Assembly: GCF_008831285.2 (NCBI RefSeq) | Contig: NC_045145.1 | Span: forward strand, 20,148,802-20,212,801 | Origin: Nymphaea colorata | Lineage: Eukaryota > Streptophyta > Magnoliopsida > Nymphaeales > Nymphaeaceae | Direction of reading: 5' to 3' | DNA length: 64,000 nucleotides | In this document: in pieces, positions 2,748 to 59,800 of the stretch | Layout: each line of letters opens with the position of its first letter | Position numbering within the stretch: the stretch's first letter is position 1 | The notes under the pieces: model-generated | The model's database searches: none | Seen by the model: only the letters and a program-made list of their open reading frames with translations | Told to the model about the DNA's origin: nothing | Made by a program: the position numbers and the translations under genes

Positions 2748-3590
2748 TAGGGCTGGGTATCGGGCCGGAGCGGGCCAGCCCGATAAAAATATAAAATCAA
2801 AGCCTGGTATTGAAAACAGGCCTGCCCGAGGCCTGGTCTATTTCTAAACGGTCCGGGCCCATGCAATATCGGGTCTCTGGCTTTGATTTATGCCCGAGGC
2901 CCGGCCCGATTATTAACGGGTCGAGCCGGGCTTTTTCGGGCCGAGTCACACCTGTTCCCTTTCTCCCCTGACTTTCTAGCTTACCCTGCTGCCGTGAAGG
3001 GCCGAGCAAGCAGGTGCCCTTTCTGTGGATCTTGTGTGAGCAGGACTGGCTGGTGAAGGAGGATTTCGGCGGCAAGGGCCTGGTGGTGCCCTGGTGCGGG
3101 CGAATGAATGTCATCTCTCATCCCTCCGTTGGCGGCTTCTTCACCCACTGCAGCCAAAACTCCACCTTTGAGGGCATATCTGTCGACGTGTCCTTCCTCA
3201 CTTTCTCCATTGCGGTAGACCAAAGTTGCAACAACAAGATGATATGAAGATGGGAGGGAGGGAGAAAATAGCAGCGATCGTGAGGAAAGTGATGGATTTA
3301 GAAAGGAAGAACAACAAGGAAATGAGAAGAAAATTCAAAGGCAGCGCGAAGTAGTCGTGAATGAAGAACAACGAATAACCCTAACATAAATTTATTTTTG
3401 AAAAAAAAAATTAATTTATTATCGGGCTGCCCGGGCCCCCGACCATTACAGTCGCAGGCCCGAGCCCGACCCGTTAGTTACCGGGCCCGATAATATTAGC
3501 CCGATAAGCAAATTTTCAAGGCCCGAGCCTGGGCCCGAGTCGGGCCTGGTATCGGGTACCCGGGGGCGGCCTGGCCCGACACAAGGCTTA
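2748..3590 (+). mobile_element. hAT-like non-autonomous transposon carrying a captured UDP-glycosyltransferase fragment
   Basis: This 843-bp insertion begins TAGGGCTGGGTATCGGGCC and its other end, read on the minus strand, begins TAAGCCTTGTGTCGGGCC, giving imperfect terminal inverted repeats. It is flanked by tttttaaa (2740-2747) and ttttcaaa (3591-3598), an 8-bp target duplication with one change. Unit 2 has the unoccupied site as a single ttttcaaa at 20634-20641. Subterminal regions are full of GGCCCG/CGGGCC motifs, as in many plant hAT elements. No transposase is encoded. The interior holds part of a UGT gene (see 2985-3354), so it is a gene-capturing element. The hAT assignment rests on the TSD length and terminal composition. 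Confidence 0.8.
2985..3354 (+). pseudogene. Captured C-terminal fragment of a plant UDP-glycosyltransferase (UGT)
   Basis: Plant UGTs transfer sugars from UDP-sugars to small molecules through a C-terminal PSPG box. Here the plus-strand frame reads VPFLWIL, then GLVVPWC, then HPSVGGFFTHC, NSTFEGIS and AVDQ, in the correct order for a PSPG box. It resembles the UGT87-type sequence most closely by eye. The key HCGWNS is changed to HCSQNS and the later G-V-P to D-V-S, so donor binding should be lost. A stop follows at 3247. The next UGT segment, IVRKVMDLE ending in FKGSAK and a stop at 3352-3354, is in another frame after a deletion. The whole piece lies inside the hAT-like element, with no upstream acceptor-binding half. 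It is a transduplicated fragment, not a working gene. Confidence 0.85.
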
Positions 3591-3598
3591 TTTTCAAA

Positions 3599-5442
3599 GC
3601 CTTCTCTTTTTCACTTTGTAAGGGGTATTTCGGTCGTTATACATCTCTTGCATGTTAGTGTGCACATCTTCGAGTGGGAATTCTACTTAAGCTTGGGCTC
3701 AGGCCGGCCCGACACCCGAAACTCAAGTCGGGGCTCGACCCAATTAAGTTATAAAATATATTTTAAATATAAAATAATATATAATTGTAATTAATTATAA
3801 TAAAATATTATATATATATATAAATTAATAAAATTAATATTAAAAAAATTTATCAAACCCACTGGACTTATCGGGTCTACCAGGGCTGGCGATAACCTCC
3901 CGATGTCCTTTTTTCATGCCCAGGTTGCTTTAGGTGGACAAGATACCAGATACCTAAAAGCAGCCCGGCCAGGTGCCTAAACTTAATGCTATTGACAAAT
4001 GACCTATAAAAGGAGCTGAATCACCCACCACATTAGCTTCTCTACGATTGGACTGCAAGTGACTCTACGATTGGACTGCAAGTGACTTCAGGAGAACTAA
4101 AAATTAAACATTTTGAACTGGACCAATGTATTCAACATGGTTTCCAAGACATTAAGTTCCACTTGGCTCCTTTTTAGGGACTATGATCGTTGTAGTAAGC
4201 AGAGAATGAATGGATGATGGAGAAGAAAAGCGATGTATCTATTTATTGCTTGTCCTTTCGTGAATTCAAATGATTCGTGATCTGCCGAAGCGGCTGTGCT
4301 GCCGAGCTCCAGCAAAATGAACCATATGCCGGTCGGATGATCATTGTCAATATGAGTAGAGACAGCTACCATGTTCAATAAGTAGAGCTAGATCTCGAAC
4401 TCTCTTGGTTAAACAGGACTTGAGCTCGACTCTTTTTAATGAACCAGCAGAGAATTTGAGATAAAAAGTAGGCTCGTTTAAAAGCTAGAATTTGACACGT
4501 ACAATGAGGAAGTTTTATAGTCGACTTAGTTTGTAGAACCAAACTGTCCTTACTTTTTGGTTTCAGTAGTTCTGTTCTGATGAAGGAAAAAAAAAGGGAA
4601 CAAAAGGAAAGTTAATCATGTGTTCGGTTGGTTAATTAAGAAAGAAAAAAATGAAGAAATAAAAGAACAATTTTAATTACCAAAAAAAGTAAATGAATGG
4701 AATGGATAACTCAATGTTAATTCAATCATGTAGGTGAACATATGGACAGTGGATATAACATAGATTCAAACCCAAACAATTTATGCAGAGAAAAATCGAT
4801 AGAGTCTCGACGCTCAAAATAATTCTTAATAATAAACTTAACAAAACTTACTTAAGAAATACTTAATTACCAAACTAATAGTTCACAAAATGATGTCAAC
4901 AAACGATGACTTAAATACACCAAGTACATTTAAATAATATACTTACATTATTTGTCATAATAAAACTTACAAAACTTACAAAAATGAAGTATAAGAACTC
5001 AGCTCAACAAGCTCATTTAGTGAACCATCACCCACGCACGCAACGTCCTTGCCCTTGAGCACACAATTAAACTCTCACACTTCAGCTCAGGAAAGTAAGC
5101 ATACAAACTCACTAAATTCTTGCACAAGACACTCGCCACTCTCTTCATGCTAGACAGAAATTGAGAAGGTCCGTTGTGAAAGTTCCACTAGTTTTTAATT
5201 ATTATTTTTTTTATTCTTTTTTACATCATTAATTTCCGACTTACAAAAAGAAGCTTACGGTTTGTCGAAAAGTTGCTGTCTTTGGTGATGATGACTCTTT
5301 ACAAATCCATCCAAAATTAAAGTGATTGAAATGAAAAAGAAAATGGTTGTTGCTTGACTCCAAGATGTCTCCTCCTTCAATGTCTAATGAGTTCCAAAAT
5401 TCCATAGCGATAAGTTTTCCCACTCAACTTCAATCAAAATTC
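3599..5442. other. Array spacer downstream of B1, with a probable second insertion at about 3688-4010
   Basis: At about 3688 the sequence leaves homology with unit 2 (which continues at 20712) and returns near 4010 at gaatcacccaccacatta. The extra roughly 320 bp has GGCCGGCCCGACACCC near its left end and an A+T-rich middle, suggesting another hAT-like element, but I could not define TIRs or a TSD. From 4010 to 5442 the sequence is colinear with 20740-22030 and 37560-38740 and has no convincing coding frame. Confidence 0.5.
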
Positions 5443-5853
5443 CTAATGAAGAGGGAATTCTTTGTCATCTGCCTCAAGCAATATTTCAGGAAGCAATGAC
5501 GATTCTTGTCCAGTTTCATGAGGTGCATCGAGTTCTCCTCCTCCTCCTCTTCCAACTCCTCCTTCTCCTCCTTGAGTGCCCTTCAGGTCGAACCAGCTGG
5601 AGAAGCAGAAGTGTTCATCTCGAAAATTGCTTGAAGGTGAAGGGGGTTCTGCCGTCTGAACCTTGGCCTTGAAGCAGTGGGATGCTTTCACAGTTAGCCG
5701 GTGAACTTGTGCTTTCACGACGGCAAAGGAAGGGACTGGGGCCTCTTCCTTTGGCGGTTGAAGGCCACCATTTTTTTGTGTAAGTGAGAGTTCCACCGAT
5801 TCTTTATATCATTGGCTGTCCTCCCAACAATCCTCCCAGCAATTAGCGACCAT

Positions 5854-14473: not shown

Positions 14474-16779
14474 TCATATCGCAGGTTCATCATCATCTTT
14501 TGGCAAGTCAGAAGGGGCCTCTGCACCTGTGGTTCCACCACTAATGTCGAAAGTGCTCCAAAACTCCGGATCTGACAATAACTTCTCCCATTCAAGTTCC
14601 CCCTGATCTGTAGGACCAGTTGTCGCTTGATGAGGCAACTCTCTCCCATCTAAGTCGAGCAATATTTCGGGAAGCCATTCAAGTTCGGCTGGAGTAGGAG
14701 CTGTTGTTGCTTGAAGAGGGAATTCTTTGCCATCTAAGTCGAACAATATTTCAGGAAGCAATAATGCTTCTTCTCCAGTTTGATGAGGTGCCTCGAGTTC
14801 TCCTCCTCCTCCTCTTCCAATTTCTACCCCTCTTCCTTGAATGCTGAATGGGTCGAACCAGCTAGAGAAGCAGAACTGTTCTTCTGTAAAGTAATCTGCA
14901 GGCTCTTCTGTTGTGGGCACCTGCTGCGTCTTGAACCAGTGCGGTGCTTTCACGGTAGGCCTGTAAGCTTGCGGCTTCACGACGACAACGGAAGGGATTG
15001 GCGGCGCTTCCTTTGGCCGTTGATAGGTCACCATTTTCTTACACAAGTGAGAGTTCCATCGATTTTTTATGTCGTTGGCCGTCCTTCCCAGCATTCTCCC
15101 AGCAATCAACGACCATCTTATTCATCACACACTCGTAAGAAAATGTCAGTAGAATAGTATATTCTTAGCTTTGGTTGAGTAAGCTCGTCTTTAATTAAAT
15201 AAAATGAGACGCAAGACAAAAAATGATAACTTTATTTAACTTTTATGAATTTGAGTGCACTTTAATTTTGTCTAATAGTCAGGCGCATCTTCCCCCCACT
15301 GGTAAGTTTTGAAGAGGAAATAGGTAAACGAATTTGATACTCAGGCTTCAATTCTTCCCTTGGCATTACTATAGTCCCGTCCTTAATTGAATGAATGTTC
15401 TGTGCAAAAGTACTCATGCCCACCTCTTAACTTTTTCAAAACTGATTTTAGAAATTGTGCACAGTGAGTAAAGCAGGAACCGAATGCCATGTCCATGTTA
15501 TGAGAGGCAAATTTAGGATGCTTAGGAAGTAAAATAGAAACACAGAGAAGGTGAAGGGAAATGAGAGGTTAAAGACGTGCAACAGACAAAGAATGGGGGA
15601 AAAGGAGAACTGGTTGTGTAAGTGGACACCTGTTCCCGAGAAGCCTTTGGATTCTGATTATGAGATCATCCTCATCCGGTGCAAAAGGGCCACGGTTGAT
15701 GTTGGGGCTAAGATAGTTTAACCACCTCAATCTGCAGCTCTTACGGCATCTGTTCAGCCCTGATCAACATTAATATAATTGAGTCAATATGCAGCAATTC
15801 GGTACTTTGATCTTTTCAGTATTTCATGCTTAATTTACTTCTGTGTTGCATGTTCAATGCATGCATATTGCTCGGAATGCAGTACTGCCATGTGATGTGG
15901 CTTGTGTACCCTTCTTTTCTTGACTTTTAATACTGTTAAAAATTGCATGCTTCCGTTTCTTTATTATTAGAAAGAGAAAAGAAAGAAAGGAGATGGAACG
16001 TCCAGATCATGTGCATGGAATCGTCTGAATCGCGAGGAAGTGACTACGAACTAGCGGACATCTCATTGAATTAAGCACTTATATACTCAAGTACTCGACC
16101 CACGAGGTCTATGTAAAGTATGTTCGTGATGCTGAATTCCAGTACATCACAGGCATATTGCTGAGTCTGGCCAGTTGGAGAACGGGGTCAGATATAGTGG
16201 TCAAGAGGAACTAGGTATAAACTTTCCAAATTGTAAGGAACGACAATATGACAATAGTAAGACTTTTTTTGTTTGGGTTTGTATGGAAATTTGGTGCAAT
16301 GCCTCTGCCCCGAGTCGTGTATTGTCACCTACTGAAGTGCATCAGTTCGTGCCGAAAACCATAGTCGGATAACTAAATCAACACGCTTGAAGAAGACGCA
16401 GGAAGAAAGACGCACAGAGATCTATAGATAGGAGAAAGAAGATGTGGCGCAAGTTCCAACGTGAGTGGGAATCTGTAGCAAAGCATATTGATGGGTTTGG
16501 CAGAAGCCACAACCGTCCGAGCAAATATCGACGATGCATGCAAATAATGTTCATGGGCTTTTCCCAAAAAATGCAAGCAGGGAAGAGTTATCATTAGGTA
16601 TCCCAATAGAGAGTTGAATATCATTATGTATCCCTGCCTGCTCTTGAAGGAACAAGGTGCCAATTCCCTTCACCGTACTTCTTGATGCATCTACGCAGCA
16701 GCACGTCCTCTTGCTCGCTCCAAGCTCCCCTTCGGATGCCTGCAGGATTAATGCAATGGCTGCTCGAGCTGCTGGCCAT
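14474..16779 (-). CDS. R2R3-MYB transcription factor A1 (anthocyanin/proanthocyanidin-type, bHLH-partnered), intact
   Basis: Three exons on the minus strand: exon 1 16638-16779, exon 2 15630-15759 (130 bp), exon 3 14474-15116; 304 aa. R2 (about residues 15-66) starts [11 protein letters not shown] and continues [14 protein letters not shown] and [14 protein letters not shown]3 (about 67-118) includes [17 protein letters not shown] and [15 protein letters not shown]. Residues 79-98 match the bHLH-binding signature [DE]Lx2[RK]x3Lx6Lx3R exactly. ANDI at 104-107 is a variant of the ANDV seen in anthocyanin MYBs, and [10 protein letters not shown] at 138-147 resembles the subgroup 6 KPRPR motif. 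The C-terminus is acidic, with a duplicated 28-29-residue module (211-238 and 239-267, each LPEIL.DLDG...LEW). Intron 1 has a GC donor and an AG acceptor; intron 2 is GT-AG in phase 2. The expected role is activation of flavonoid pigment genes with bHLH/WD40 partners in the nucleus; that role is inferred from the family. Confidence 0.9.
15630..15759 (-). other. Exon 2 of MYB A1 (reference for the other copies)
   Basis: The exon is flanked by AG (15760-15761 in complement) and GT (15628-15629 in complement). It begins with two bases of a Gly codon and ends with two bases of an Arg codon, the phases usual for R2R3-MYB genes. The 130-bp length and frame are identical in B1 (9119-9248), B2 (24388-24517) and A2 (32014-32143). 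Confidence 0.93.
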
Positions 16780-20114: not shown

Positions 20115-20919
20115 GCACTACTTAACTGGTATTGAATATCTGAGATGGATTAGTTGTAGTTTAATAACAAAAAGAAGTAAGGTTATTTTGGAGATTTTTC
20201 AAAAATTAAATGTTTTTTTACTTTTTACTTTTTCAGTCTTTTTCGACTCAATGAGGCTCTCTTTTTACTCACCAGGCATATTCTGATCATTATACAAGAG
20301 CTGGCATTTTCTGATCATTATACAACTGAACTCTCATTTTACTGACTAGAGATATTCTGATCATTAGACAGCCAAATGATGTACAATTTTTTGTGTGGTG
20401 CATATAACCAACTTAAGAGAGCGAGTGATCACCATCATAATTTAATAGGTGGCATGAGGTGCGCTACTATCGCGTAGGCGACCAGAAATCTAGTTCCATC
20501 CACAGCCCTCAACACACAGTCAATATACACCTCCAAGATACGAGAGAGGTTGAGGGTATTTTAGAAATTTTTGATGATGAAGTGCACCTTTTATTTTTTA
20601 TTTTTTTACTTTTTTACAATCTCATTTTTGTCCTTTTCAAACTTCATAAGATGTATTTTGCTCATTATACACCTCTCATGCATGTAACCATCTTCGAGTG
20701 GGAATGCTACCGGCAAAAATTGGCTGATGGGAGAGAGAGGAGCCGAATCACCCACCACATTAACTTCTCTACGATTGGACTACAAGTGATTTCAGGAGAA
20801 GTAAAAATTAACCATTTTGAACTGGATCGACGTATTTCATATATATAGATATGGTTTCCAAGAGTTTGACATGTTCCACTTGGCTCGCTTTTCGACGATG
20901 ATCGTTGTAGTAATATGAA

Positions 20920-27590: not shown

Positions 27591-29313
27591 AACGAGACAA
27601 GAAATGAAAACCTCTTTTTTACTGCTTGGAGGGGTATATTGGTCATAACATATGCACATACGAACACACAATTTTTACCTTTATCGAATATTCAAATCTT
27701 TTTTTTACAATTTTCTTTTTGTATTAATCATGTGTATTTTTTGTCATTATTAAGCATAATTTTTCACACTAAAGACAGCATATTTAACCATTTCGCTTGT
27801 ACAGTGGTTAATTATTTAACACAAGAACTAATGTCTTTGAAGGGTGAGTCTAAGATATTTGAAAAGCAAATTGATGAATAAAATCATAATTAATTGTCGT
27901 AACACGACATTCAAAGTTCTTTTTTTTGCTGCCTGGTCGTGAAAAAGAACTTCTGTCTACCTTTTTTGTTTGCTTTTGTTCAATTGGTATAACATAGGTC
28001 ATCAATATTCCATATCAGTTCTTGTAAAGTTTAAACAAAAGCGAAGAATTAGAAACCAATTTTACTTTCGGCCAAGGTGCTGCCAGTGATGTGACTGTCT
28101 AATATCGGGTGCCCGTGTGGTCACGCTTGGCGCTAACCTACTTCTTTTTGGGCATGTATGAAATTTTAAATTAGTCTTTATTTTGATGAAATAGACAAAC
28201 GAACTTTTTATATTGATATGTTTAGTGTCGCTGTTGCATTTTTTTATATAACTAATCAGATAATAATGTCTAAGGATTGTGACAGTTTGATTGCTCAGAA
28301 GGGTAAGAAACCAATAATTAAGCAAAAAAAAAAAAACTTCATCAATAGTGACTACTCCGAAATAAAAACATCTGCTATTGCAAGAATTTTTCTTACGTTG
28401 AATCTCTATCTTCAAAGTTAATGGGAATCAATGGTGGACCAAAGGGCAATATTTGAAAACAAGCCAGAGGAAACAAGGAAGATCAATATCACGTGTATAT
28501 ACAGCAACCAAAGAGTTTATTGATACTTTGGTTCTTCGAACTAAGTTGTATGTAAACTGTCAATCGTTCGGTTAGAAATGAGCTGCCATTACACGTCAGT
28601 TCCTTCCTTCGAGGAAAGTCTTACAGTTCATGCTACATATGTTAGCATCTGCAAATAATGCACAAATACAACGAAAGTTTCATGTTTTGTTATGATCTTC
28701 TAGATAATGTTTATTATGTTTTCTCTTGAAAATCATACCAGTCCGTTCCAGATGAGATTTGGAACATGCAGATATATGTTCGTATATAAATAGGGAGTAA
28801 ATCAAACGAGAAAGAGACACACATTGGTACTTCCGCATAAATGTAGGCTGTTTGGGATAACTGAACCATGTACAAGAAATTTCTTTCTTTTCTTTTTCTT
28901 TTTCGTTTTCGGAGATCTGATGTATTTTAGGAAAAGTTAATTTTCTTCAGCTCCATCGCCTCTCCAGTTGGAAGCCGAACCATAAGAACTTTAACTACTT
29001 GAATTAAAGAACTATTCAATACCTGTCGCTTTTTTTGCATATTTGATCAACTTAAAAATGAAGATAATTAATTGCGTTTGACGGTCTCATTAAATTAATG
29101 TCTTATTTCAAGAATCATTATGCCATGAAATAAAAAATACGAAGTGGCAGGGTCACCAAAGCCTTCCCATATGTTAAATTTCTTATTGGGAGCTTCCTTT
29201 TACGCAGCTATATATTTGAAGAATATTGTGTTTAAGGTTCATACTTTTTTCACAAATAAATAATATTTTCAAGATATTGCTTGCATGTATGAAGTAGCTA
29301 AACTATGTGTTTT

Positions 29314-29505
<192 letters not shown>

Positions 29506-30636
29506 ATATAGGGAAAAGAGGAAGGGACAAAAACCGGTTTACTTCGTCTTCATAATGACATTCTTAATCTAAAAATCAACATTATCAATACTATTATGAT
29601 AGCATCCTTCCTGAAAACCTTACTATAGCACGTCACCCAACAAGAGAGAGAGAGAGAGAGAGATTGAATGCTTTCTTGATCCCACAAAAATGGTACCATG
29701 GAATGCTATTTCTACCCAAACACAAAAAGTGGGGATAACTTTTCTCCGTCTTGTCATGAATTTTCCATATCAGAAGTGTGTGGAGTCTGCCTTTGATGAA
29801 TAACCATTCTCCATCGTTTAAATAAAATATGCAGTTTCGTTCCAAATGCATAACATTGTCAAAGTTACCTGGACACGAAAAGGAACAAGACAAAAGACGA
29901 TCGGGAAAAGGGGAACTAAATCGACATGCTTTGGTTCCTTAAGTTTGAGGGGTTTCAGCACTGTTGTCCAAGGAGCTCCAAAGCTCTAGATCTGACAATA
30001 AACTTTGTCATTGAAGTGTAAAACAATGAAAGTAAAGAATAAGGAGTTTAACGTGGCTGGAATAAATCCTAGTCCATGGAAACCCTCCATCCGTAGATCT
30101 TCCGATAGTGAGACACCCATTCAATGTTTATATGCTATTGACTTGGTCCTTAGAATGGTTGCAAAATCATTATTACTGGCAATAAATCTGCATCTGATTA
30201 TGGTAGACAGTTTTATCAATTTCCTTCGTGATTGCAGCATTAATGTTATTATCGATATTATCTTCGTAATCTCCTTATTGATCGTGATCTTCTTTGCGTC
30301 ATTTTTCTTAAGAACTGCAACATAATGACTGGCCTTAGTGATGCATGACCATCATTTTCATTGTTCCTCAAACCGGACGTCAATGCAAAGAGTCCAAGTT
30401 TGTTGTAGAGATTTCTAAAAGTGGATTGGGTCATTGCTTTGATGAAGGCAACAAACACCTGGTCGAGCCCCTGTTCTTTTTCAACAAGCGTTTTTGTTCT
30501 TCATATCGCAGGACCATCATCATCTTTTGGCAAGTCAGAAGGGGCCTGTGCACCTGTGGTTCCACCACTAATGTCGAAAGTGCTCCAAAACTCTGGATCC
30601 GACAATAACTTCTCCCATTCAAGTTCCGCCTGATCT

Positions 30637-33220
30637 TTAGGAGCAGTTGTCGCTTGATGAGGCAATTCTCTCCCATCCAAGTCGATCAATATCTCCGGAA
30701 GCCGAGCAAGTTCGGCTGGTGTAGGAGCAGTTGTTGCTTGAAGAGGGGATTCTTTGCCATCTAAGTCGAACAATAAGCAATAACGCATCTTCTCCTGTTT
30801 GATGAGGTGCCTCGAGTTCTCTTCCTCCTCCTCTTCCAACTTCTACCCCTCTTCCTTGAATGCTGAATGGGTCGAACCAGCTAGAGAAGCAGAACTGTTC
30901 TTCTGTAAAGTTGCCTGCTGGCTCTTCTGCTGTGGGCACCTGCTGCGTCTTGAACCAGTGGGATGCTTTCACAGTAGGCCTGTAAGCTTGTGGCTTCACG
31001 ACGACAACGGAAGGGATTGGCGGCACTTCCCTTGGCCGTTGATGGGCCACCATTTTCTTGCACAAGTGAGAGTTCCATCGATTTTTTATGTCGTTGGCCG
31101 TCCTTCCCAGCATTCTCCCAGCAATCAGCGACCACCTTATTCGTCACACGCTTGTAATAAAATGTCAGCAGAATAGTATATTCTTACCTTTGATTGAGTA
31201 TGGTCGTGTTTAATTAAATACAATGAGATGCAAGACAAAAAAAAAGTCAAAACTTTATATCATTGTCACAAAAAATAGGGACAGGTATTAAACGGCAAGG
31301 AAAAAAACGGGTATAATACGGTAAAGTTTTATATATCAAAAATAAAACGGGAAAAGTTGGGCAATTTTTTTTTTAAAATTAAACATTTAATATATCATAA
31401 ACATTATAAAAAATAATAATTAATAAAAAATGGCAAAAAATAGAAAAATAATGGCAAAAACGAGAAAATAACGTATAATACGGGTATTATACAAGTATTA
31501 TACGGTTATTATATACGTTTTTTGTTTTTTAACGTTTTTTTTAAACGAGAATAATACAGGTATTATACGGTAGAACCGTTTTTGGCGTTAAATACACGTT
31601 TTTTTTCAAAAAAACGGCGTTTCTTTTTTACAATGCTTTATATAACTTTTTTGAATTTGAGTGTCTAATAGTCAGGCTCATCTTCCCCCCACTGGTAAGT
31701 TTTGAAGAGGAAGTAGGTAAAAGAATTTGATAGTCAGGCTTCAATTCTTCCCTAAAGACCCGTCCTTAATTAAATGAATGTTCTGTCCAAAAGTACTCAT
31801 GCCCACCTCTTAACTTTTTCAAAACTGGTTTTAGAAATTGTGGAGAGTGAGTAAAGCAGGAACCGAATGCCATGTCCATGTTATGAGATGCAAATTTAGG
31901 ATGCTTTGGAAGTAAAAATAGAAACACAGAGAAGGTGATGGGAAATGAGAGGTTAAACACGTGCAACAGACAGAGAATGGGGAAAAAGGAGAACTGGTTG
32001 TGTAGGTGGACACCTGTTCCCGAGAAGCCTTTGCATTCTGATTATGAGATCATCCTCATCCGGTGCAAAAGGGCCACGGTTGATGTTAGGGCTAAGATAG
32101 TTTAACCACCTCAACCTGCAGCTCTTACGGCATCTGTTCAGCCCTGATCAACATTAATATCATTGAGTCAATATGCAGCAATTCGGTACTTTGATCTTTT
32201 CAGCATTTCATGCTTAATGTACTTCTGTGTTGCATGTTCAATGCATGCATATTGCTCGGAAGGCAGTATTGCCATGTGATGTGGCTCGTGTACCCCTCTT
32301 TTCTTGACTGTTAGTATTGTTAAAAATTGCATGCTTCCGTTTCTTTATTATTAGAAAAGAAAGAAAGAATGAGACGAAACGTCCAGATCATGTGCATGGA
32401 ATCGTCCGAATCTCGAGGAAGTGGCTACGTACCAGCGGACATCTCATTGAATTAAGCACTTGTGTACTCGAGAACTCGATCCACAGAGTGTATGTAAAGT
32501 AGGTTCGAGATGCCGAATTTCACAGGCATATCGCTGAGTCTCGCCAGCTGGAGAACGGTGTCATATACGGGGGTGATGAGGAACTAGGTATAAACTTTCA
32601 AAATTAACTTGCAAAATTGTATGGAACGACAATATGACAATATAAAAATAAGATTTTTTTTTTTTTTGGTTCGTATGGACAGTTGGAACAATGCCTCTGC
32701 CCCGAGTCGTGTATTGTCTCCTACTGAGGTGCATCAGTTCGGGCCGAAACTCATAGTCGGATAACTAAAATCAACACACTTGAAGAAGACGGGAGAAGAA
32801 AGACGCACAGAGATCTAGAGAACCTAGAAAGAAGATGGAAGAAAATTATTGGCTGCGTTGGAGATCACGCGATCTTGAAGGAGAGTGGCGCAAGTTCCAA
32901 CGTGAGTGGGAATCTGTAGCAAAGCATATTGATGGGTTTGGCAGAAGCCACAACCGTCCCAGCAAATATCGACGTTGCATGCAAATAATGTATATGGGCT
33001 TTTACCAAAAAATGCAAGCAGGGAAGAGTTATCATTAGGTATCCCAATAGAGAGTTGAATATCATTATGTATCCCTGCCTGCTCTTGAAGGAACAAGGTG
33101 CCAATTCCCTTCACCGTACTCCTTGATGCATCTACGCAGCAGCACGTCCTCTTGCTCGCTCCAAGCTCCCCTTCGGATGCCTGCAGGATTAATGCAATGG
33201 CTGCTCGAGCTGCTGGCCAT
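30637..33220 (-). CDS. R2R3-MYB transcription factor A2, C-terminally frameshifted (256 aa predicted)
   Basis: Exons: 33079-33220, 32014-32143 and 30637-31135. The start, the R2 and R3 repeats and the exact bHLH-binding signature match A1; in exon 1 one residue differs (CIKEYGEG against CIKKYGEG in A1). Exon 3 keeps [27 protein letters not shown] and [10 protein letters not shown]. An 8-bp deletion at about 30774-30775, relative to A1, shifts the frame after DALLL. The protein then ends in an unrelated Ser-rich tail at 30637 and loses both acidic LPEIL.DLDG modules. The original frame remains open as far as the A1-type stop at 30501. The DNA-binding domain and bHLH surface are intact, so the product could bind DNA with weaker activation. 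Intron 2 is enlarged by a 375-bp MITE. A pseudogene is the alternative reading. Confidence 0.82.
31261..31635. mobile_element. 375-bp MITE with 8-bp target duplication in A2 intron 2
   Basis: The ends are CATTGTCACAAAAA and, on the minus strand, CATTGTAAAAAAG. The flanks are perfect 8-bp repeats ctttatat (31253-31260 and 31636-31643). A1 intron 2 shows the unoccupied site near 15222-15240. The interior repeats motifs of the type gtattatacgg. TSD length fits the hAT superfamily. Confidence 0.88.
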
Positions 33221-39132: not shown

Positions 39133-40384
39133 CTTATTGATCATCACAAGCATGCAATTAGAAAATGTCAAAAAGAATATATTCTTTATTTTCAAAGAAT
39201 TAATAAGGAATGAGAAGCTCAGGTTTGTCTTTAATTTGAATTTATGACACAAGTTAAGCACAATAATCGCAGAAATTAAATGATAAATACTTTGAATTTG
39301 AGCGTCCTTAATCACATCAATTTTTGCTGTGGGATCATCACTTCTATGTCATGAAGCTTCGTAGGCATACGAAATTAATTCTCTATATATTTTTCTTTTG
39401 CAATGAAAAATGCTATTGTCAAAACTGAAAATTGTGCAATTTAATGATTTCAAACTTTTTTAAAAAATTATACAGGTGAAACCTATAGGCTATGGCTTTC
39501 AATTAAGAAAAGAAGCGATGGAAAGAAATGTTTAACATGGCATGCAAAACATTAGTGGAGCTCGTCACAAGTTTCACTATTGGAGATTATCTCACGCGTG
39601 TGCGTGGTGCGGCTGCGATCGTAAGGCCTGACAAATCATGAACAAATTAAATATAATCTTAAAAAAATCCCAACTGTTATGAAATCAACAAACAAAGATT
39701 TAGGTTGTATTGTGACATTAATTAGCAAAAAGGAGAGAAGAGATCATATTCTATATACAATACTAAAAATTACGTTAATGAGCCCTAAGGTAGCTCGACG
39801 TTGCAAACGATTAAATTAATAAGACTTTTCTTCCTACTAACTAATTATAATGCTTGACCAGCGGCGTTACTTACGGACATTAAATATCCTGATCGCTTTT
39901 GCTGCTTCCTAAATTCGGCTTGAACTTTCTACAAGCCCTTCCAATGGGGTCGTAACCTGTCACCAACGCGTGCTAGACTTGCATGAATTATTTTCTTGAC
40001 GCACAAGTAGTTGTCGTTCTTTCGCATATGGTGAATTTTACATATCCAAATTGAGGAAAGTGCATCGGTGTTTGCTTGCAATCCTTTAAAATCCAAAACC
40101 GATTTGGTTTATAATCTTCAATCCAAGAAAAATCCTGGAAGCTTAGCTCTTTCCGTGTAAAAAAGAAGCTGGTGACGAACCACCGGCGGTGGCTGAAGAG
40201 TCTCACGGGCCCCTCATGCGGCTCTGCCATGTGCTCCCTCGGACGGTCGTGGCCGTGTTTCGGCTGGAAGAAGGGGACTGCCCGGCCGATCGGGTGGTCA
40301 GTGCTCGACCATCATATGCAGCGAACAAGTTTTTCGTCTTTCAGTTGTTCTTGGCACATGATTGGTTCCAAAGGGTTGGTCCCA
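39133..40384. other. B3 'intron 2' remnant
   Basis: Colinear with 5854-7010 and 22470-23400. It includes the gcttgaccagcggcgtt block near 39850. No gene is recognised. Confidence 0.5.
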
Positions 40385-40851
40385 CCTGCCGCTCTGTCAT
40401 CGGTGGAGCGGAACAAGACGCGAACCAGGTGGGTGGGTCTACTATGAATGATCGGTGGTTCGACCTGCCGCTCTCTCATCGGTGGAGCGGAACAAGACGC
40501 GAACGAGGTGGGTGGGTCTATTAGGAATGATCGGTGGTTCGACCTGCCGCTCTGTCATCGGTGGAGCGAAACAAGACGCGAACCAGGTGGGTGGGTCTAC
40601 TAGGAATGATCGGTGGTCTGACCTGCAGCTCTGTCAACGATGGAGCGGAACAAGACGCGAACGAGGTGGGTGGGTCTACTAGGAATGATTGGTGGTTCGA
40701 CCTACCGCTCTGTCATCGGTGGAGCGGAACAAGACGCAAACGAGGTGGGTGGATCTACTAGGAATGATCGGTGATCCGACCTGTCACTCTGTTATCGGTG
40801 GAGCGGAACAAGATACTAACGAGGTGAGTGGGTCTCCTAGGAATGATCGGT
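40385..40851. repeat. 79-bp minisatellite, about six copies
   Basis: Landmark cggtggagcggaacaagacg recurs every 79 bp (about 40401, 40480, 40559, 40638, 40717 and 40796). B1 has a single copy, interrupted by the hAT element at 7019-8158; B2 has none. Several overlapping open frames cross the array, but the period is not a multiple of three, so they are not taken as genes. Confidence 0.93.
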
Positions 40852-41212
40852 CGTCCTTTTAAGACTGTGTTTCGATTTTGATCTTTTTCTTATATGAATA
40901 AGTATCTCTAAAGGATATTTTATTTTTTTTTTTCTTTATTGCTTGGAATCAATACCAAAATTTGAGGACACAAGAAACCCCCTATTTACAATGTTCTCCA
41001 GAGTACCCACCTAGACATGCTACACTGTTAACATAAATATCACACTATTAATCTAAATAATTAAATGAAAAAAAACCCACGCTCAACAATATTACCTCTC
41101 TTCTTTTTATAAACATCAAACGGGTAGTCTTGCCCCGATAACTGCTCTTTATTTAAAAAAAAAACACTAAATTAATAGTTCAAATGACCAATTTATCTTT
41201 ATAATTAAACAC

Positions 41213-48990: not shown

Positions 48991-49537
48991 ATATAAATGA
49001 TCAATACATTTGAGAGATTTACATTCTACATTTTTGGCCTTGATCAAAGGATTTGGTTGAGCCTCATGATTTTACCAGATTTATCAACTCTGTAGATTCG
49101 GTTTGCAAGAAGATGTATCCTGAGGTTCCTTTATAAATGATCAATACATTTGAGGGATTTACATTCTATATTTTTGGCCTTGATCAAAGGATTTGGTTGA
49201 GCCTCATGATTTTACCAGATTTATCAACTCTGTAGATTAGGTTTGCAAGAAGATGTATCTTGAGGTTCCTTTATAAATGATCAATACATTTGAGGGATTT
49301 ACATTCTATATTTTTGGCCTTGATCAAAGGATTTGGTTGAGCCTCATGATTTTACCAGATTTACCAACTCTGTAGATTCGGTTTGCAAGAAGATGTATCT
49401 TGAGGTTCCTTTGTAAATGATCAATACATTTGAGGGATTTACATTCTATATTTTTGGCCTTGATCAAAGGATTTGGTTGAGCCTCATGATTTACCAGATT
49501 TACCAACTCTGTAGATTCGGTTTGCAAGAAGATGTAT
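48991..49537. repeat. 140-bp tandem repeat, four copies, abutting the MYB D exon
   Basis: Landmark tcaatacatttgag occurs at 49001, 49141, 49281 and 49421, exactly 140 bp apart. Copies differ at only a few positions, so the array is young. The last copy ends at 49537, where MYB D 3' sequence begins. Confidence 0.95.
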
Positions 49538-49993: not shown

Positions 49994-53088
<3,095 letters not shown>

Positions 53089-53187
53089 CATAAGAGCATA
53101 ATGCCTACAACAATTGAATTAGCAACACATATGATTGTACCTATATAACTTGTGCACAATGTGCATGTCAAGTATCATTAAAAGTAT

Positions 53188-56879: not shown

Positions 56880-59800
56880 CCAAACCTTGAGGAATCTTCA
56901 TAATACTTCTTCTTGGAGACCACCTTGAAGAAAAGCATTCTTAACGTCAAGTTGAAAATTTTTTCACCCAAAGTTGCAAGCAATAGATTTATAGCTCTCA
57001 GAATAGTCATTTTCGCAACCAAAGTGAAAGTTTCAAAGTAATTTATCCCCTTAGTTTAAGAGAATTCACACGCCACTGGCCTTGTGTCTTTCAATCCAGC
57101 AATTGTTGTGAAATTTATCTTTAAATATCCATTTACAAGTCATTGGCTTTTGTTTGAAGGAAGAGGAACAAGATCCCAAGTCCCATTTTTTTAATGCATC
57201 GAATTATTTCCTTATAGCTTTTCTCCAACTAGACTCCCGATAGGCTTCTTCAAACATTTTTTGTTCTACCACACTATCTAATTTCACAAACAAAGCAATT
57301 TATTGTAGTTTACTGGAACTTCAATAGCATATTTGACTAGACTACACATAATAAAATCTCTAAACCTTGTAGGGGTTGATGGGCTCTTTCAAATCAATGC
57401 GAGGTGGTGACCTCTTCCACGGGTTGATTACTCTCATTTGAAGTCAAGTTCTCTGGTTGAGATGGTGATGGCTAATGGTTGAAGTAGAGAGTTAGGTTGA
57501 AGGTTTTTCATCTTTCCCTAAAATTGATTATTGAAATAGGCTTGTGACTCATCAATTTTCACATCTCAAGAAACAAACATTCTTTCTTATATAGAGTCAA
57601 AACACCAAAACCCCTTTTTTGTATAAGAATAATCCATAAAGGTAGATTTAATGGCACAAGTTTGAAGTTTATTTCAATGTTTAGGAGACTTTCAAACATA
57701 GACAACATAGCCAAAGTTTTTTAAGTTTTCAATACAATGCTTTCGACCCTTGGGAACTTCAATAGAAGCCTTATTTTTATGATTGCGTCTTGGCAATCGA
57801 TTCATAATATAGTTTTTCAATAAAAAGAGCCTTGCTCCAAAAATGATCAGAGACATGGTTTTGAAATAGCAAAGTGTGTGTGATTTCAAGATGTCTATTC
57901 TCCTTTCCAAAACTCCATTATGTTGTGAGTTTCTCTACACATCATTTGGTGTTTCATTGTAAATTGATTTGAAAATGATTTAAAATTATGATTTACATAC
58001 TCGGTTCTATTGTCATTGTAAAGGATTTTAATTTTAGTTGCAAATTGAGTAGAGACCATATTGTAAAAAGTTTAGAACTTTGAAAACACTTCATCCTTGG
58101 ACTGTAGAAAATAAATCCAACACACTCCAAAAAAATCGTCAATGAATGAAAGATAATATTTGAAACCATTATATGAGTCAATCAAGGCTGGCCCTCAAAT
58201 GTTGGAATGAACTAATTGGAACATACTGTTAGAACAACTATCAAAAGAAGGAAATAGTGGTCTGGTAAGTTTTGCATACTGGCACACCTCACAAGAGTTG
58301 CAATCAAACTTTATTTCGAGCTTTAATATACCCATCACATAACTAGATGGGTGACCTAACCTGGAGTGCCAACACTCCCCTTCATTGCAGCAAGAGCCTT
58401 ATTCATGCAATTTAAATAATAGAGCCCACAAAATTTAGTTCCTTCACGAATCGTCATCCCCATAGTATCCTGAAATACAACCTTTGAAGGCAAGAAGATC
58501 AAGTTGCAATTATAGGTTTTTGTAATTTTGGTCATGGACATAAAATTAGAGGCTAAATTTGGCGTGTATAAATCATCAATGGAACTTTTCTTCCCAAAAA
58601 CTTGAATTTTTCCTTTGCCAAAAACCTTAGTTTGGCCACAGTTAGTAATAGTGGCTAGTCTAATGTCAAAACTATCTTTAATCTTAGATAGCACATTTTT
58701 AAAGCCAATCATAATTTATCAGAAGCACTAGAATCTGTTATCCAAGAGTTGTCATTTAAATATGATAGAAAACTGCATGTACCTGGTCGTCGTTAGTGTC
58801 ATGAGTGGCAAGAGTGGCAGCATTTTGCTTGATGAAACCTTGTAGGAGTTGTGACAGTTTCTCCATTGTCACAGGAGTTTCAGATTGCTCATCATGAAAG
58901 GCCTGTACAACTTTGTTTTTCCCTTCAATACCTGGTTTTTTGTTAAGCTTCCAACACTTCTCCCAAGTGTGATTGTCCTTCTTGCAATAAGTACTGAACA
59001 ATTTTTCTTCCTTTGAAATATGAGTTAGATGGCACACCACTATCTTTTTGTTTAGAAACCATAGCAGCTTGGGAGTCATTAGCGTCATCATTTTTTATAA
59101 ATGGATTCATAACTTACTGACGGCATTCCTCACACATGATTATAGAACATATAATATTTAACTTAGGGAGGTCATTTTGTCATAAGTACCTGGCTGCATA
59201 GTTGTACATGTTTTGGCCTAAGACCAGTCAACATTTGAAAGATTTTATCATTTTTTATGTTCTTTGCAAGAGTAGTTGTAGGTGTATAAGATTCTCATTC
59301 ATCCCAAAGCGCACTTAACTGCCCAAGATATTTAGTATAAGCTATGTCTTCCTGCATTAAATTATTAATCTCCTGAGCAATTTGGTATTGGCAACATTGA
59401 CTAAAAAGATCGCGAGCATATTCCCAAACCTCCTTTGCGGTTTCTAGAAAATAAAAGCTTTGGACGATTTTTTTATCCATAAAATTTAGAAGCCATGACA
59501 TAACAGTATGGTCTTTGGATTCTCATTCTTCTAGCATCAGATCTCCTTCTGGTGGCTTTGGTTTACTACCTGTTACATGACCAAGTTTTGCCTTTCCACT
59601 GAGAAATAATTTTGTAAACTTGGCCCATGTGAGGTAGTTGAACCCGTTCATGTGAGGTAGTTGAACCCGTTCAGAGATTCAATGGTAATTTTCAGTGCTG
59701 GATTAACACTGTCAAGTAGAGAGAAAGCCAGGTGTTTTGGGCATGCCGTGCATAGTAAAGGAGAGAAGAATATTTTGGTAATTTATTAAAAATGTCCTCC

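Follow-up and report, generated by a model that had tools for sequence, protein, structure and literature searches.

A probable Pack-hAT element carrying a UDP-glycosyltransferase exon fragment, present in at least 14 places in the Nymphaea colorata genome

The element and its insertion site

The window analysed here is a stretch of 64,000 nucleotides on contig 8 of the Nymphaea colorata genome (20148802-20212801). It contains diverged tandem units, and unit 1 carries a short element with a fragment of a UDP-glycosyltransferase (UGT) gene in its interior. The features (window positions) are as follows, TIR standing for terminal inverted repeat and TSD for target-site duplication.

2740-2747, no strand: left TSD, TTTTTAAA, agreeing with the right copy at 7 of 8 positions
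2748-3590, plus strand: non-autonomous element of 843 bp, a probable Pack-hAT
2748-2768, plus strand: left TIR, TAGGGCTGGGTATCGGGCCGG; family form TARGGCTGGGCATCGGGCCGG
2769-2932, plus strand: left subterminal region, rich in GGCCCG, also present in non-UGT members of the family
2947-2999, plus strand: spacer of about 53 bp, approximate limits
3000-3333, plus strand: captured piece of UGT exon 2 (donor frame GLRASG to MRRRGRE), approximate limits
3357-3569, plus strand: right subterminal region, in common with the F1 subfamily
3570-3590, minus strand: right TIR; family form TAAGCCTGGGCACCGGGCCGG on the minus strand
3591-3598, no strand: right TSD, TTTTCAAA
20634-20641, no strand: paralogous empty site in tandem unit 2, with a single TTTTCAAA

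The element starts with the T at 2748, where it opens with TAGGGCTGGGTATCGGGCC, and ends with the A at 3590, its right end reading TAAGCCTTGTGTCGGGCC on the minus strand. An earlier note on this DNA, made from the letters alone, had placed the limits at 2748-3590, and these were confirmed to the base; the imperfect TIRs (about 21 bp long) and the 8-bp TSD that it described, with flanking 8-mers agreeing at 7 of 8 positions, were likewise borne out. The element leaves no room for a transposase, its 843 bp comparing with open reading frames (ORFs) of 440 and 240 aa in the longer relative described below, and its single ORF that was scanned matched only UDPGT in Pfam. A search with 2938-3003 for a source of the spacer other than the UGT copies found none, all 10 of the 10 scored candidates being UGT-carrying loci. 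As a side observation, a second GGCCCG-rich stretch, noted by eye, lies just to the right of the element (3690-3930) and is possibly a decayed hAT relic.

Unit 2 provided a direct view of the site before insertion. The right TSD copy is identical to the 8-mer of the unit 2 empty site, and the joined flanks of the element aligned across the junction to 20328-20710 (74.6%), the left flank matching unit 2 at 78% over 315 columns and the right part at 86% over 359 columns. Since the flanks align through the junction with one copy of TTTTCAAA, the insertion is confined to unit 1, and the claim that unit 2 keeps the empty site held; nor does the donor UGT lie at this position in the tandem paralogue, the only place compared. 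The simplest order would be that units 1 and 2 were duplicated first and the element was inserted afterwards; a precise loss of the element from unit 2 is a less simple possibility.

The captured UGT fragment

The cargo is a fragment of about 335 bp of a UGT second exon, covering what we take to be the PSPG region and sequence beyond it, and the open stretch 2972-3244 matched the Pfam UDPGT profile with an E value of 1.2e-6. The fragment had previously been described as the PSPG region plus the C-terminal tail of a UGT: the first part stood, with the UDPGT match, while the second did not, as the last 39 or so codons of the donor are missing from the cargo. In addition, the cargo has lost about 58 bp internally and contains an in-frame TGA; the window copy reads HCSQNS where the donor-type genes read HCGWNS, and its TGA follows NKMI.

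The genome searched comprised 407,766,735 bases in 783 contigs. The donor search that the earlier note had suggested was run as DNA and profile searches, and led to a pair of donor-type UGT genes on contig 5. Specifically, when the genome was searched with 2965-3390, the 16 candidates, all of which were scored, corresponded to 13 elements, two contig 5 genes and one contig 10 fragment. The two genes, denoted here as D1 and D2, lie in tandem about 8 kb apart (at 26.897 Mb and 26.905 Mb) and are 87% and 86% identical to the window copy over 243 bp. Each has two long open stretches, in keeping with a UGT of two exons, and both are apparently full-length and intact. Their second exons matched UDPGT (8.7e-21 and 5.4e-19), the top-ranking solved relatives of the first being glycosyltransferases. 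Thus, as in Pack-TYPE elements, a host gene fragment lies between TIRs and a related gene is found elsewhere in the genome.

All 13 copies are closer to D1 than to D2 and, at the sites where the two genes differ, the majority of the copies has the D1 state at 21 and the D2 state at 8. A tree of the 13 copies and the two genes, which, being unrooted, gives no order for the capture and the divergence of D1 and D2, had weak internal support and grouped the two genes at 1.00. In this tree, the D1 branch is shorter than the D2 branch, so the nearness of the copies to D1 is no proof of descent from it. Moreover, D1 and the copies' majority disagree at 23 of 347 sites and, therefore, a paralogue since lost, instead of D1 or D2, could have been the direct donor.

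One cargo in many places

The earlier note had proposed a genome search for other copies carrying the same gene piece, and 12 further elements plus a truncated one came to light. UGT-carrying places thus number 14 (13 elements and one truncated copy), on ten large contigs (C1, C2, C4-C10 and C14). The contig 10 piece is the fourteenth copy: it has an intact left TIR and a cargo with a further deletion, and its right end is missing. A gap of 42+16 bp relative to D1 is common to all 13 elements, and the TGA after KMI is present in 12 of them, L004 having TGG instead. Because the deletion of about 58 bp is the same in every one of the 13 elements, the simplest reading of these sequences would be that the piece was captured once and then amplified.

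Both ends could be placed in 9 of the 13 UGT copies, and in 7 of these 9 the flanks form a TSD matching at 6 or more of 8 positions (8, 8, 7, 7, 7, 6 and 6), while in a control with mis-paired left and right flanks only 1 of 72 combinations reached 6 of 8. The other two showed no TSD (L008, 3/8; L055, 1/8). The left end is unclear in L005, L007 and L059, and the right end in L056, which runs into another GGCCCG-rich stretch. Separately, L055 (C2:9888000-9896000) is interrupted by some 4.4 kb of other DNA, and the query segments on the two sides of the break overlap by 7 bases. The common cargo deletion, the TSDs in seven of nine copies and the paralogous empty site together indicate transposition with the cargo on board.

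These data bear on the alternative that a local UGT gene has decayed into the fragment and that the GGCCCG repeats beside it are unrelated neighbours. The fragment is clearly of UGT origin and the genome does contain tandem UGT genes; however, a gene decaying in place does not account for 13 copies with the same deletion and the same kind of ends in different places, nor for the clean empty site in unit 2. The common deletion and the empty site refute a local degraded gene, and the probability left to it is practically nil.

The carrier family and a possible source of transposase

The 21-base TIR pattern, allowing up to 2 mismatches, had 2864 matches in the genome (1465 and 1399 by strand), as against 1 and 0 for a reversed control. 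Among the matches listed there were at least 14 facing pairs. All 13 of the pairs that were fetched have a TSD matching at 6 or more of 8 positions (8/8 in ten, 7/8 in two and 6/8 in one), the fourteenth pair, outside those fetched, being the UGT copy L004 (6/8). This agrees with the expectation of the earlier note that the ends should occur elsewhere with 8-bp TSDs. One locus, L062, shows an additional inner, unmatched TIR pairing. For another 24 loci with element-like ends, a pairing rule that itself demanded a TSD of at least 6 yielded a pair in 12 and none in the remaining 12. In the whole-element search, which returned many matches to positions 1-185 of the query, 40 of 334 candidates were scored, so that the counts of relatives sharing only the ends are lower bounds. 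Among the 12 loci with a pair under that rule, the F1 elements L032, L034 and L041 have an identical TSD (GATACCAT, with GATAGCAT in one copy) and, consequently, they likely lie inside a larger duplicated repeat.

The short members have common ends and differing interiors, which define the groups F1, F2, F3 and the UGT type. The UGT type is closest to F1: the left sides are 96% identical over 101 columns, and the F1 match on the right extends inward to about 25-60 bp from the cargo. Gene content in the interiors of the other subfamilies was looked for in six ORFs (four from one F1 member and two from one F2 member), for which the Pfam scan was empty, and when the genome was searched with the interior of one F1 member (40 of the 49 candidates being scored), no donor gene was recognised. 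This search returned further family members, together with a second repeat set matching positions 47-156 and 284-430 of that interior. Members of this second set (C12:44900, C12:67852, C8:144951, C8:24638983 and others) are about 69-90% identical to both parts of the F1 interior, and several lie within 0.5 Mb of a contig end.

Evidence on the class of the carrier came from L060, a relative 4,976 bp in length, whose TIRs are exactly those of the family and whose TSD (ATTTAACC) matches at 8/8. Its ORFs of 440 and 240 aa encode hAT transposase domains (Dimer_Tnp_hAT, 5.2e-31; hAT-like_RNase-H, 1.4e-26; zf-BED, 7.4e-7). The carrier, called hAT-like in the earlier note, can therefore be upgraded: to judge from its 8-bp TSD, its TIRs and the linked transposase, it is a hAT, the class of the transposase between the family TIRs being read from the Pfam scan of the two L060 ORFs and the TIRs being judged by their length of about 21 bp and their number in the genome. 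Mobilisation in trans by an L060-type transposase would be the natural inference. At their ends, the UGT element and L060 are about 76-77% identical; the mobiliser need not, therefore, be L060 itself, and a closer one may exist or have existed. The profile Dimer_Tnp_hAT (PF05699) had at least 150 matches in the genome, all 150 of those scored among 1113 candidates.

A carrier of the MULE or Helitron type was also considered, these being the best-known capturers of genes, and Pack-MULEs, though of a different superfamily, resemble the present element in being TIR elements with captured gene fragments. MULEs, however, make 9-bp TSDs and Helitrons none, whereas the duplications here are of 8 bp, and the relative with the same TIRs encodes, by the Pfam scan of two L060 ORFs, transposase domains of the hAT superfamily. 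Pack-MULE identity was rejected on these two counts, and a carrier of either type is extremely improbable.

Sequence drift and the question of function

The mean pairwise K2P distance between cargoes was 0.131 (78 pairs, range 0.088-0.198). Taking the copies' majority as the founder, changes away from it amounted to 187 non-synonymous and 104 synonymous, compared with 187.0 and 103.6 expected from the mutation spectrum, that is, an observed/expected N/S of 1.00; 18 changes created stop codons. The cargo is evolving like non-coding DNA, by neutral drift in the donor frame, and with N/S equal to expectation selection on the captured frame was rejected. With a frame-breaking deletion in all 13 elements, the stop in 12 of them and an N/S as in the absence of selection, the cargo no longer looks like a working gene. 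Plant neutral rates lie at 5e-9 to 1.3e-8 per site per year, at which half of K2P 0.131 would correspond to some 5 to 13 million years, as an order of magnitude only. To the right of the cargo the mean K2P was 0.248 (78 pairs), a seemingly higher divergence than in the cargo, for which methylation or a poor alignment of the GC-rich repeats may be responsible.

A cargo retained for some function, as a regulator (for instance a source of small RNAs targeting UGT genes) or as a coding exon, is improbable. It could appeal to the multicopy state of the cargo, to the similarity of the window copy to the two apparently intact contig 5 genes, and to the report that some Pack-TYPE elements supply exons in maize and rice (PMC8903248). 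Drift without selection and the 18 stop-creating changes count against a coding role, but not against a small-RNA role. Indeed, a narrower form, that the UGT cargo of the 14-copy lineage yields transcripts or small RNAs damping both donor-type UGT genes in trans, survives the sequence evidence because such regulation needs similarity and not an open frame. It is more doubtful still than functional retention in general; if true, a transposon burst would have created a new regulatory link.

A proposed history and its relation to published elements

These observations can be integrated by assuming a Pack-hAT with a captured UGT exon piece that was spread by transposition, an explanation to which we assign a probability of about 0.95. 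In this model, a small non-autonomous hAT element nearest to F1 would have taken up about 400 bp from exon 2 of a UGT related to today's tandem pair on contig 5. The cargo would have lost about 58 bp, and with them its reading frame, prior to the spread. With transposase supplied in trans by full-length hAT relatives with the same ends, the element would then have reached at least 14 places, one of them near MYB unit 1 after the duplication of units 1 and 2. The capture step itself is what we infer from the outcome; repair with template switching is one published capture model (PMC8277862).

Gene capture by hAT elements is already in print for maize, rice, grapevine and animals (PMC2528002, PMC8903248, PMC8277862). 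The Pack-hATs annotated in maize and rice (PMC8903248, PLoS Genet 2022) are described as non-autonomous, with hAT TIRs, 8-nt TSDs and host coding fragments within, as here; the present case differs in consisting of one UGT capture with a traced donor-type pair and at least 14 copies. The word Nymphaea is absent from the main text of that paper. In grapevine, Hatvine-6 (PMC2528002, PLoS One 2008) is also a hAT family with a variable interior that carries host gene pieces. Its members have a common transposase coding sequence and a variable part that is often unique or found in few members, unlike the present element, which at 843 bp is too short for a transposase and has had one interior amplified. 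In animals, PMC8277862 (Nat Commun 2021) gives hAT as 208 of 370 Pack-TIRs, only four being multicopy. Among them, Pack-hAT-N8_XT of the western clawed frog is alike in that one host piece was amplified by hAT transposition with distinct TSDs, and unlike in carrying a 5'-UTR piece on three chromosomes of an animal, as against a coding-exon piece in 14 places in a plant.

No earlier account of the present element was found in the Pack-TYPE and Pack-hAT papers or in the part of the Nymphaea transposon literature that was covered. What is probably new here is a well-anchored Pack-hAT with at least 14 copies in a host that is probably early-diverging. It is a cleanly documented case, with exact ends, a TSD, an empty site, donor-type genes, a transposase-bearing relative and measurable divergence between copies, and it shows that hAT transposition can spread a gene piece to a dozen sites or more while no selection on the coding frame of the piece is detectable. 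It may also help annotators not to mislabel such pieces as UGT genes.

The MYB neighbourhood and other features of the window

The nearest ORF of the MYB units (5443-5808, minus strand) lies about 1.85 kb from the element and had no Pfam match at E 0.1; the repeat-equivalent ORFs 14474-15121 and 30637-31143 matched Myb_DNA-binding. A functional tie to the MYB cluster is not supported, given this distance and the lack of a Pfam match. The earlier note had allowed that the adjacency may be chance, and we treat it as such because the other 13 copies lie elsewhere in the genome; the neighbourhood looks incidental.

Some further features of the window were recorded. The ORFs 240-755 and 58356-59094, both on the minus strand, resemble by eye pieces of copia-type retrotransposons (for example, DTWIIDSGATDHLSSS in the first). 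Two arrays of copies spaced at 8 bp (29313-29540 and 52908-53135), 23 kb apart, match each other in both direct and inverted orientation, and tandem repeats with spacings of 79 bp and 140 bp occupy 40298-40929 and 48992-49492, respectively.
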